This document shows positions 8,373 to 30,692 of a DNA stretch of 64,000 bases, one piece after another. Below the pieces are notes generated by a model. The model was not told where the DNA came from and did no database searches. It was given only the letters and a program-made list of their open reading frames with translations. Position 1 is the first letter of the stretch. Each line of letters begins with the position of its first letter. The position numbers and the translations under genes are program-made. Source of the DNA: Ilyobacter polytropus DSM 2926 (lineage in GTDB: Bacteria > Fusobacteriota > Fusobacteriia > Fusobacteriales > Fusobacteriaceae); assembly GCF_000165505.1 (NCBI RefSeq), contig NC_014633.1:558001-622000 (forward strand). The letters run 5' to 3'.

Positions 8373-8816
8373 TTATACAAAGAACCATATTATAAAAATA
8401 TCACTCAGCATATTGATAGACTCTTCTATCTCAATGGCCTCGAATGTAATTTCATTTTTTGCCTTGGAAAACATTCTAGATATTTTTTTAGACATAGACC
8501 TGCAAATATGGAGATTCCCTGCCAAAAGATCCCCCTGTGGCAGTATAAATATATATTTTCTAATTTTCTCACCTTTTTTATCATATCTATTCTTTATTTC
8601 TTTAAGAATTAACTTATCCTCTTTTAAAAAATCACAGTTATCTCTCAAATTTCCCATAAGTTTGTAGGTAAGATTTAATATTTTTAGAAGGTCTTCTTTT
8701 ATTTTTTTGTCTTCACATTGGCCAAAGGCCTGTCCTGCAAAGGAGGAAAGTATATCTATCTCATCTGTCAAATCACAAACTTTACTCTTGTAGCATATAT
8801 CTGGAAAACAATGCAT
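8373..8816 (-). CDS. Cobalamin adenosyltransferase-like protein, likely frameshifted at its C-terminus
   Basis: 147 residues from the ATG at 8816 (AAAGGAG just upstream). The middle and end match the helical core of PduO/MMAB-type cob(I)alamin adenosyltransferases: VCDLTDEIDILSSFAGQA like the family's DELNS helix, YIFILPQGDLLAGNLHICRS like FVLPGG...LHxAR, and ESINMLSDIFIIW like the LNRLSD helix. The N-terminal ATP-binding TKTGDxG loop is absent, so catalysis is doubtful. The frame stops after IIWFFV. One frame over, the sequence goes on for 22 codons (ending VEEIPVVLLPERK at 8317) in a way that suits the family's C-terminus. This points to a frameshift at about 8378-8382 or an assembly error. 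Confidence 0.6.
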   Translation of the reverse strand: MHCFPDICYKSKVCDLTDEIDILSSFAGQAFGQCEDKKIKEDLLKILNLTYKLMGNLRDNCDFLKEDKLILKEIKNRYDKKGEKIRKYIFILPQGDLLAGNLHICRSMSKKISRMFSKAKNEITFEAIEIEESINMLSDIFIIWFFV

Positions 8817-9074
8817 AATTACTCCTTTCACATTTTGAAACTGAAAATAAACTAAGTTATCTTATTCTTAAATGTTAACAGAAAAAACAATTCAACACAA
8901 ATTAATATATTTTAACTGATAAATTTAAAATGTTTTTACAAAGCAATGCTTATTTAAAAATGTCATTGAAAACCTTCTAAAATAGTTACTTTTAAGTTTT
9001 GAAGATTCAAATTGAAAGTTTATATTGTAATATTTCAAATGAGTGATTTATAGATATACCACTAAATTTCAAAC
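8817..9074. other. AT-rich intergenic stretch
   Basis: No ORF with a ribosome site. I see only weak promoter-like AT tracts upstream of the minus-strand gene at 8816. Confidence 0.4.
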
Positions 9075-25442: not shown

Positions 25443-25739
25443 TTGGATAAGAAAAAAGCTTCTAACTATAAATTTGTACAAAACAGTAAGTGCGAGTATT
25501 TCCCATGTCACAAAATCGAGGAAACAGAAAAATTCAACTGTTTGTTCTGTTATTGCCCTCTATACATGATGGGTGAAGAATGCGGGGGTAATTTCAAGTA
25601 CACAGAACACGGAATAAAGGATTGTTCTCAGTGTAGCCTCCCTCACATAAAGGAAGTAGGATTTGACCACATTCGCGGTAAAATGAAAACTGTTATCAAT
25701 ATAGTCAAAGACAAACACCTAAAAAATATAAAAAAATAA
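25443..25739 (+). CDS. Cysteine-rich small-domain protein
   Basis: 98 residues starting with TTG (GGAGG seven bases upstream). The Cys pattern CEYFPC...NCLFCYCPLY...ECGG...CSQCSLPH matches the 'cysteine-rich small domain' family (Pfam zf-like), probably Zn- or Fe-S-binding, function unknown. It begins 30 bp after the glutaredoxin-reductase fusion, so it should be cotranscribed and could be a partner or substrate. Confidence 0.82.
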   Translation: MDKKKASNYKFVQNSKCEYFPCHKIEETEKFNCLFCYCPLYMMGEECGGNFKYTEHGIKDCSQCSLPHIKEVGFDHIRGKMKTVINIVKDKHLKNIKK

Positions 25740-28369: not shown

Positions 28370-28648
28370 TATTTTCCTCCTTTTATGTATCTTAAATAAA
28401 AATTCATCATATTATATCATAAATTTTAATTTATCTGAATCTTCTTAGTATTTATTATTTTTATTTTTTAAAATAAATTAAATATTAATAAATTATAGGA
28501 CCTTTTAAAAGATTGTGTTTTTATGTTAAAATAATATATCAAATACAAATAAGAAAATTTAACTAAAATATAGTTTTGTATTGCTCAATTTCTATATAAA
28601 ATGTATATTTTATTAAGTATAGCTAAATTATTAAAACTGGAGGTCTTT

Positions 28649-29770
28649 ATGAAAAACCCATACTCAGTTCCGAAAGGAGAAGCTGTTTCTTACGCTTCTG
28701 CTATAGAATACGAGAAATATATACCGGAAATGACTGAATCTGTAAACTTTATAATGAGAAATATCAATTCGAGTGAAAATTTAATCGGAGATAACCCATT
28801 GTCAGTCATGTATGAGAATCATATTCATCATTCTAAGTTTATGGCAAATATTTTCAAATTAAACGATTATGAACTTCTGAATAATACACTGAAGTGGGTA
28901 TTAAACAGCTATATCAGCAGAGGATTTAAAAGTGAATATTTTCAAAAAGAGTTAGATGCTTGGATAAAGGTTATAAACGATACAATAGATCCGAATTATT
29001 CTTCAGATATAATTAAAATATACCAATGGATGAAATCTGTTGTAAAATTTATAGAAGAAGATAATAAAAATATAGTAGATGAAATCCCCTTTCCTTTTGA
29101 TTCTCAATGGGAAAATATTAAAAATAAATTTTTTAACCTTCTAATCAAAGGAGACTCCACTGAGGCATTGCAGTTTTCAAAATCTATCGTACATGACAGA
29201 AAATCTCTTGAAAATTTTTATACAAAAGTTATAACATATTCTATGTATGAAATCGGTTTATTATGGGAAAAGGGTCAGATATCTGTCGCTCAGGAGCATC
29301 TTGCCACGTCTATAGTAATGAGAATAATGTCATATTTATATATGAATTTTATTTTGATCCAAGCCAACAAGGGAAAGGCTATAATCACATCATCTGCAAA
29401 TGAACTTCACGAAGTTGGAGCAAGGATAATAGCCGACATACTTGAATTAGACGGGTGGAACATTTTATATCTTGGAGCCAATACCCCAAATGAAGAACTA
29501 ATAAAACTAATAAGAGAAGAAAAACCTGATTTTCTTGGCATATCCGTTACTATGGCATTTAATCTAGATAATGTTAAAAATTTAATCTCAAATATAAGAT
29601 CCCAGTCAGATTTTAATGACTTGAAAATTTTAGTAGGTGGATATGCATTTACATTTGGCGGAGATAGTCATAAAAAAATCGGTGCAGACAAAATTTCAAC
29701 TAGCATAAGTGAAACTCTAGAAACCTCAAGATTGTGGTGGAGGGATAAAAATGAATCTAAATATAAATAA
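28649..29770 (+). CDS. Cobalamin-binding sensor protein with photoreceptor-type motif
   Basis: 373 residues from the ATG at 28649 (GGAGG seven bases upstream). Residues 1-150 are helical, unrecognised. Residues 155-235 are a B12-binding helical cap with W206-x9-E216-H217, the Trp-x9-Glu-His motif of CarH-type adenosylcobalamin photoreceptors. Residues 243-370 are the Rossmann B12 domain with ExHxxG at 252-257 (lower-ligand His254) and LGAN. There is no DNA-binding domain. The 3' end overlaps the next gene, a diguanylate cyclase, by 20 bases, so the sensor probably controls that enzyme. Confidence 0.82.
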   Translation: MKNPYSVPKGEAVSYASAIEYEKYIPEMTESVNFIMRNINSSENLIGDNPLSVMYENHIHHSKFMANIFKLNDYELLNNTLKWVLNSYISRGFKSEYFQKELDAWIKVINDTIDPNYSSDIIKIYQWMKSVVKFIEEDNKNIVDEIPFPFDSQWENIKNKFFNLLIKGDSTEALQFSKSIVHDRKSLENFYTKVITYSMYEIGLLWEKGQISVAQEHLATSIVMRIMSYLYMNFILIQANKGKAIITSSANELHEVGARIIADILELDGWNILYLGANTPNEELIKLIREEKPDFLGISVTMAFNLDNVKNLISNIRSQSDFNDLKILVGGYAFTFGGDSHKKIGADKISTSISETLETSRLWWRDKNESKYK

Positions 29771-30692
29771 CAGCAAAATTTTATTGGATTATCTAACTGA
29801 AAAGACCAATAATCCTATAATTACACTGACAAAAGATCTTCGAATAGATCAGTATAACAAGGCTTTTGAAAAATTAATTGACGAATCTGAACATATATAT
29901 AATAGTTTTTTTGAAAAGACCGTCGGAAAATTGGAAGTTTATTCTGAAAAATCGATTGACGAAAACCATGTCATAAAGGAGATCAGCGCAAGTTATAGAT
30001 CTAAATCAGGGTCAGTAACACATCTTCAGGGAACACTAATAAAAAAAATTGATGAGACAGTTATAATTTTTAAAAATTTTATGATAAATGAGTCACAAAT
30101 AATAGATGAAATTTCCAAAATGAATATAGAAATGTCTAATCTCACAAGGGAATTGTCAAAAAAAAATTTTCAGTTGAAGTTGGCCAACGAGAAAATAACA
30201 AAATTATTAAATACTGATTTTCTAACTGATCTTTATAACAGAAAACATTTTTTTGAACGTTTAGAAGAACTTGTATCATTGAAAAAAAGAAAAGATTGTC
30301 TCAATATCGGTATTATTTTTGCTGATATAGATTTTTTTAAGACTATTAATGACACTTACGGCCACGATACAGGGGATTTGGTCTTAATTAAATTCTCACA
30401 AATGCTAAAAGAAAGCCTCAGAAAGGAGGATATAATTGCAAGAATTGGAGGAGAGGAGTTCTGCATTATTGTTCAGTGCGGCACGGATAATTGCCTGACT
30501 AATATTTCTGAGAAACTACGAAAAAATTGTGAATCTATGATATTTGATAATATAGATATTAAACTTACAGCAAGTTTTGGAGCAACTTTTTACAGGGTTG
30601 GGGAAGAGATAGACAGCACAATAAAACGAGCAGATGAAAATATGTATAAGGCAAAAGATACTGGTAGAAATAAAGTTATATTTTCTTTATAA
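29751..30692 (+). CDS. Diguanylate cyclase (GGDEF)
   Basis: 313 residues. The N-terminal 130 residues look PAS-like, with the typical ITLTKDLRIDQYNKAFEKL start; a helical linker (about 115-145) follows, then the GGDEF domain at 150-313. Active site ARIGGEEF is intact, and the product-inhibition site RKED lies five residues before it, so synthesis of cyclic di-GMP with feedback control is expected. The start codon lies inside the upstream B12-sensor gene with GGAGG ten bases before it, so the two are translationally coupled. Confidence 0.93.
   Translation: MNLNINNSKILLDYLTEKTNNPIITLTKDLRIDQYNKAFEKLIDESEHIYNSFFEKTVGKLEVYSEKSIDENHVIKEISASYRSKSGSVTHLQGTLIKKIDETVIIFKNFMINESQIIDEISKMNIEMSNLTRELSKKNFQLKLANEKITKLLNTDFLTDLYNRKHFFERLEELVSLKKRKDCLNIGIIFADIDFFKTINDTYGHDTGDLVLIKFSQMLKESLRKEDIIARIGGEEFCIIVQCGTDNCLTNISEKLRKNCESMIFDNIDIKLTASFGATFYRVGEEIDSTIKRADENMYKAKDTGRNKVIFSL

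Follow-up and report, generated by a model that had tools for sequence, protein, structure and literature searches.

Photocobilins are proteins in which an adenosylcobalamin (AdoCbl) domain is joined to a bilin-binding globin (PMC10979010). One of them, AbDPcob, is fused to a diguanylate cyclase. Light raises the turnover of this enzyme more than tenfold, binding of AdoCbl is by itself enough to make it less active than in the apo form, and activity is also altered in trans, either by the separate sensor domain or by the standalone SasPcob of another organism (PMC10979010). A route from light to cyclic di-GMP via B12 is therefore established by the AbDPcob/SasPcob work (PMC10979010). In SasPcob, biliverdin is held by Asp270. 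A signature of light-responsive cobalamin-binding domains has been published separately, and comprises the elements GxxW, EH, GxxH and GxxxP (PMC11796333).

Here we compare with these systems a pair of overlapping genes from Ilyobacter polytropus DSM 2926. This organism was described from marine anoxic mud as a strictly anaerobic, non-motile fermenter, which agrees with an earlier sequence-only reading of the locus that had presumed an anaerobic host, and its replicons are chromosomes of 2,046,464 and 961,624 bp plus a plasmid (PMC3035301). The stretch of DNA analysed, termed the window, is 64,000 nucleotides long and corresponds to positions 558001-622000 of the second contig, chromosome II, in a genome totalling 3,132,314 bp.

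A B12-binding sensor gene overlaps a diguanylate cyclase gene

The features of the two genes are listed in Table 1. The sequence-only reading had described a B12 photoreceptor-type protein whose gene overlaps by 20 bases an intact GGDEF gene with an inhibition site, and each of these points was borne out. The open reading frames share positions 29751-29770, the 3' end of the sensor gene and the 5' end of the cyclase gene; both starts are preceded by good ribosome-binding sequences, GGAGG at 28639-28643 for the sensor and GGAGGG at 29739-29744 for the cyclase. Overlap or near-contact of sensor and partner genes is common among homologous operons. The GGDEF domain of the cyclase is recognised by Pfam with an E value of 3.8e-42 and carries GGEEF at residues 233-237 together with DIDFFKTINDTYGHDTGD, and the RxxD inhibition site is RKED at residues 224-227 (R224-D227). 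The PAS-like region that precedes it gives no direct Pfam match; PAS matches were obtained for the partners at loci L070 and L065 of the wider family described below. Promoter-like sites are near chance level, and a search for terminators gave none.

Table 1. Features of the sensor-cyclase gene pair. Positions are those of the window.
Feature	Position	Strand	Evidence
B12-binding sensor gene, 373 aa, photocobilin-like, with N-terminal globin domain	28649..29770	+	ORF, Pfam, AlphaFold model
Photoglobin/phycobiliprotein-type helical domain, residues 15-141	28691..29071	+	profiles, alignment, AlphaFold model
N57, at the position of the bilin-contacting Asp of SasPcob	28817-28819	+	alignment
W83, equivalent to SasPcob Trp296	28895-28897	+	alignment
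B12-binding_2 four-helix cap, residues 159-230	29123..29338	+	Pfam
W206 within B12-binding_2	29264-29266	+	alignment
E216-H217 within B12-binding_2	29294-29299	+	alignment
B12-binding Rossmann domain, residues 242-347, with GANTP	29372..29689	+	Pfam; fold match
Lower-ligand H254 within B12-binding	29408-29410	+	alignment
Ribosome-binding GGAGGG and 20-base gene overlap (translational coupling)	29739..29770	+	sequence; homologous operons
Diguanylate cyclase gene, 313 aa	29751..30692	+	ORF, Pfam
PAS-like N-terminal region of cyclase, about residues 10-110	29778..30080	+	inferred by position
35-residue coil, residues 113-147, common to partners of these B12 sensors	30087..30191	+	coil profile
GGDEF domain, residues 154-308, with GGEEF active site and RKED inhibition site	30210..30674	+	Pfam

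The B12 part of the sensor is of CarH type

The W-x9-EH motif and lower-ligand histidine noted in the earlier reading were confirmed by alignment. W206, E216, H217 and H254 are invariant among 58 aligned relatives, W and EH remain so through all 62, including a member from the phototroph Oscillochloris, and the set formed by W, EH, the lower His and GxxxP is invariant or nearly so across these 58-62 proteins. In corrinoid-enzyme decoys from the same genome and phylum (methionine-synthase-type proteins and others) the tryptophan is replaced by Phe or Tyr and EH is not kept, so that W-x9-EH is more than a general feature of B12 domains; the identification of the sensor as a methyltransferase corrinoid protein was rejected on these residues. 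When set against the published signature, the sensor has GxxW as GLLW, with W206 and E216-H217 in the expected spacing, and GxxxP as GANTP. The GxxH element is incomplete: H254 is present, but Asn takes the place of Gly (NELH); in the clade to which the window sensor belongs (the window clade), Gly is usually replaced here, by Asn or otherwise.

An AlphaFold model of the sensor based on the 58-sequence alignment reached a pLDDT of 93.6 and a pTM of 0.90, and was used in place of a run with three sequences (pLDDT 45), which was discarded. When the whole model was searched against solved structures the best matches were to the light-responsive proteins SasPcob, AbPcob and CtMerR, all through the B12 domain, which filled the match list. 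The best fold match, to SasPcob, had a Z score of 26.2 and an rmsd of 1.9 over 208 aligned residues, with Z 26 to SasPcob and AbPcob over the B12 part. Taken together, these comparisons support a CarH-type AdoCbl domain that is predicted to bind AdoCbl.

PduO-type adenosyltransferases are present in I. polytropus, two canonical copies being encoded outside the window (172-183 bits), and the organism can accordingly make AdoCbl. The window itself encodes a diverged PduO-type cobalamin adenosyltransferase at 8373-8831 on the reverse strand (38 bits).

The N-terminal domain is a globin that has lost the bilin-contacting aspartate

The earlier statement that the sensor has no DNA-binding domain holds in that Pfam and NCBIfam scans of the protein found no MerR-type domain, but it passed over a globin domain at the N-terminus, and therefore missed the photocobilins and a wide family of homologous operons. 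On the evidence of profiles and the model, the N-terminal 140 or so residues, which have no Pfam match, are a globin domain of the phycobiliprotein/photoglobin type. A related Azospirillum protein directly matches the SasPcob globin and allophycocyanin, and a family profile built from 43 N-termini, which takes in the window protein, matches allophycocyanin (E 1.9e-8), the SasPcob globin (E 3.2e-7) and AbPcob (E 7.4e-4). Aligned with hhalign, the window clade and the rest of the family gave a score of 47.3, against a maximum of 20.7 among 60 column shuffles. A profile of the window clade by itself finds the SasPcob globin in the same register but reaches just E 0.56, so that the globin assignment depends on the wider family. 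The AlphaFold model of this region is helical throughout. The sensor thus combines a B12 domain of CarH type with a photoglobin domain and, since its N-terminus is a globin, its closest known proteins are the photocobilins.

SasPcob residues were numbered with an offset of 6, which fits W61, E71-H72, H108, D270 and W296 simultaneously. The equivalent of Asp270 is N57 in the sensor, and because of this loss we class the protein with the photocobilins by architecture only, and not as a bilin-binding photocobilin. The aspartate is missing from 13 of 13 window-clade members (clade support 100/99), among which the tryptophan is kept; the three fusobacterial proteins have Asn, Asn and Ile at this position. 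In the larger clade the aspartate is present in nearly every member.

Heme oxygenase was not found in I. polytropus, nor in the two sister-genus genomes that carry the pair, and biliverdin binding is therefore unlikely in the native host. The enzyme is present in four Zn-tail members of the window clade and in its Oscillochloris member. Absence of heme oxygenase was considered as a hallmark of the clade and rejected, as these five members possess the enzyme and PF01126 matches are also lacking from most genomes of the other clade. Since some members carry the enzyme, the loss of Asp alone is not enough to argue that the clade is bilin-free. No genome scored above the cut-off of the anaerobilin synthase model TIGR04107, below which a diverged HmuW could fall. 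Given the loss of Asp in all 13 members and the absence of heme oxygenase from I. polytropus, AdoCbl is probably the only chromophore of its sensor, which is also the simpler reading of these sequences.

Two members of the window clade have a heme oxygenase-globin fusion inside the sensor operon. In a Desulfuromonadales MAG (L063, 2294-5443) and a Nitrospiraceae MAG (L065, 3866-6999), heme oxygenase is fused to what appears by eye to be a second globin-like domain, and both operons also encode a B12-globin sensor and a PAS-coil-CxxC protein. It is possible that each constitutes a bilin photosensor that supplies itself and has an output tail of no assigned function. Despite the loss of Asp, window-clade N-terminal domains retain near-invariant aromatics (W83, W105, Y125 and W127) and an NHxxH-like stretch. 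This pattern suggests that the globin pocket may still be under selection, perhaps for another ligand.

A short coil is common to partners with different outputs

Single-sequence scanning of genome contigs found no relatives, and plasmid searches with the N-terminal domain alone or the cyclase N-terminus alone gave no matches. When genome contigs were scanned with two motifs from the B12 domains of six sequences as seeds, 80 loci from many phyla were recovered, a sample that is not unbiased owing to this seeding. The partners comprise histidine kinases, GGDEF proteins and short proteins with a CxxC-type tail, and at most loci the partner gene directly follows the sensor gene. The partner coil lies directly downstream on the same strand in 39 of the 48 loci that had enough downstream sequence and were not sources of the coil profile; it is upstream in two and on the opposite strand in none, and the median gap is 0 nt. 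In the Acidobacteriota loci L087 and L112 the partner coil is upstream of the B12-globin gene.

A profile constructed only from histidine-kinase partners, using the sequence that precedes the kinase domain, also recognises GGDEF partners. It scores 162 bits on that of L122, 88 bits on that of L080 and 30.5 bits on the window cyclase, as against at most 3.7 bits for nine other I. polytropus GGDEF proteins and at most 5.9 for shuffled sequences. The match in the window cyclase is short and covers the 35-residue coil at residues 113-147. Because the coil is co-inherited while the output domains change, we infer that the sensor docks on, or acts through, the coil and the PAS-like region before it. 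On a tree whose partner labels were assigned by simple motifs, with some kinases placed in the class 'other', the GGDEF label needs at least five changes, and cyclases would therefore have been recruited more than once. Occurrence of the same two-gene arrangement with different output enzymes in many phyla suggests a portable light or B12 switch.

In the partners of L061, L063, L064, L065 and L066 the kinase or cyclase is replaced by a conserved tail, IPICMYCKKIRDD..W..LE.YI..HSEA.FSHGICP.C. This tail is metal-binding in appearance, and no Pfam family was found for it among the three partners scanned.

The pair is conserved in sister-genus genomes

Conserved pairs of this type, for which the sequence-only reading had thought it worth searching, were found within Fusobacteriota as well as in the wider operon family. 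Both genes are present in two sister-genus genomes at 60-71% identity, with overlaps of 17-20 bases, and this recurrence indicates that the pair is not a chance arrangement. A close relative with the pair is labelled Fusobacteriaceae. Within a 98-genome set the sensor gene is missing from the two congeners and from the rest of the phylum. Among 96 genomes of the order, strong matches to the coil profile were confined to the three sensor-bearing genomes, with one weak match of 22 bits elsewhere. In genome G014 (evidently the same genome, UBA2433, as locus L058) the surroundings of the pair match those in the window, with homologues of the window genes at 23-25.7 kb adjoining it, which suggests that the pair descends from a common ancestor at this site.

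Near the pair, the window encodes a small zf-like protein rich in cysteine (PF04071), at 25443-25739 on the forward strand, and a homologue adjoins the pair in G014 too (L143, 8349-8657).

Light control of the cyclase and its alternatives

We favour light-dependent control of the cyclase through protein contact with the B12 sensor, and assign this reading a probability of about 0.58. Protein contact with a separate cyclase had been proposed from sequence, and it gains support as the likely mode from the cis and trans switching of the published B12-globin sensor (PMC10979010). The sensor would bind AdoCbl in its CarH-type pocket, packed on a photoglobin domain that is probably bilin-free. In the dark, the adenosyl-bound form would keep the GGDEF dimer of the co-translated cyclase in one state by docking on the PAS-coil region of that enzyme. 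Blue-green light would then break the Co-C bond with loss of the adenosyl group, the shape or oligomeric state of the sensor would change, and cyclic di-GMP output would change with it, most likely upwards as in AbDPcob, although this direction is borrowed from that protein and is uncertain. TtCarH needs oxygen for full monomerisation, and the photochemistry in an anaerobe may thus be reversible or different. The 29 GGDEF matches in the I. polytropus genome indicate that cyclic di-GMP signalling is well developed there. Against light control stand the Asn in place of Gly in GxxH, the anoxic-mud habitat, the oxygen requirement of TtCarH and the shortness of the coil match; no record of a light phenotype of I. 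polytropus was found.

The Asn and the habitat fit the main rival to light control, in which the sensor reports AdoCbl status and light plays no role. The difference between the adenosyl-bound form and the apo or other-cobalamin form would signal cofactor supply, and the photosensory residues would only shape the adenosyl pocket. Such a sensor would suit a host that is able to make AdoCbl, and has a precedent in the lowering of AbDPcob cyclase activity by AdoCbl alone (PMC10979010). We nevertheless think it unlikely, as the residues that touch the photolabile adenosyl group in proteins of CarH type, W and EH, do not vary among the 62 relatives, that of Oscillochloris included, and neither a cobalamin riboswitch nor any other RNA family was detected in the 64-kb window at the gathering threshold.

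A dual-chromophore photocobilin, which would respond to red light through a linear tetrapyrrole held in the globin and obtained either by import or from a biosynthetic route that escaped recognition, is improbable. The replacement of the bilin Asp throughout the window clade, the lack of heme oxygenase in I. polytropus and in both sister-genus genomes with the pair, and the lack of a HutW-type anaerobilin synthase above a cut-off that a diverged HmuW might not reach, weigh against it more than the retained globin domain with its aromatics, or the heme oxygenases and operon-borne fusions of other clade members, weigh in its favour. B12-binding and B12-binding_2 domains also occur in methyltransferase corrinoid proteins, and the two proteins might on that basis be co-expressed but independent, one a corrinoid carrier for some methyltransferase and the other a cyclase with its own PAS signal. 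This we judge highly improbable: the aligned corrinoid-enzyme sequences are without W and EH, no methyltransferase gene is adjacent, and gene order and partner coil are kept across phyla while the outputs change.

We tentatively suggest, with somewhat less than even confidence, that the Asp-less B12-globin clade (Fusobacteriota, Spirochaetota and other mostly anaerobic groups) has abandoned the customary bilin contact. Its fusobacterial members would rely on AdoCbl alone, their globin pocket possibly serving another ligand, to drive a separately encoded output via the common docking coil, so that light or AdoCbl state would control cyclic di-GMP in anoxic sediment. The pair would carry the logic of B12 photoreceptors over from fused proteins to a sensor and an enzyme encoded separately in strict anaerobes, and a single short coil probably serves kinases and cyclases alike for docking; in that case outputs would be exchangeable by design, and why non-phototrophic anaerobes retain light-type B12 sensors could be tested directly with two small proteins.

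Comparison with known systems

Sensors of this type, and their connection with cyclases, are already known. In 2022, Schneider et al. (cited in PMC10151467) reportedly associated globin and B12 domains with signal-transduction domains and proposed them as a light-sensing bundle. The fusobacterial two-gene form, the Asp-less clade and the coil common to three outputs are not described in the literature examined, although the gene-neighbourhood section of Schneider et al. may cover part of this.

The CarH/LitR repressors (PDB 5C8D) and CtMerR (8JBS) share with the window sensor W-x9-EH, the lower-ligand His and GxxxP. They carry a MerR-type DNA-binding domain, whereas the window sensor has none, and the bis-His residue H132 of TtCarH is E207 at that place in the window sensor. 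SasPcob (Saccharothrix syringae; PDB 8J2W/8J2X) is, like the window sensor, a separate B12-globin protein, and it influences a cyclase in trans. It binds biliverdin through Asp270, which the window sensor has lost, its globin is C-terminal, and it was tested with the AbDPcob cyclase; the source examined describes no partner cyclase of its own. AbDPcob (Acidimicrobiaceae; PDB 8J2Y, the sensor part) resembles the window pair in that CarH-type B12 and photoglobin domains control a GGDEF domain, and in both the bilin Asp is replaced, by His in AbDPcob and Asn in the window sensor. However, AbDPcob is one fused chain and the window pair two overlapping genes, the globin follows the B12 domain in published structures of photocobilins but is N-terminal in the window sensor, and the window cyclase, unlike AbDPcob, has a PAS-like region and coil of its own.
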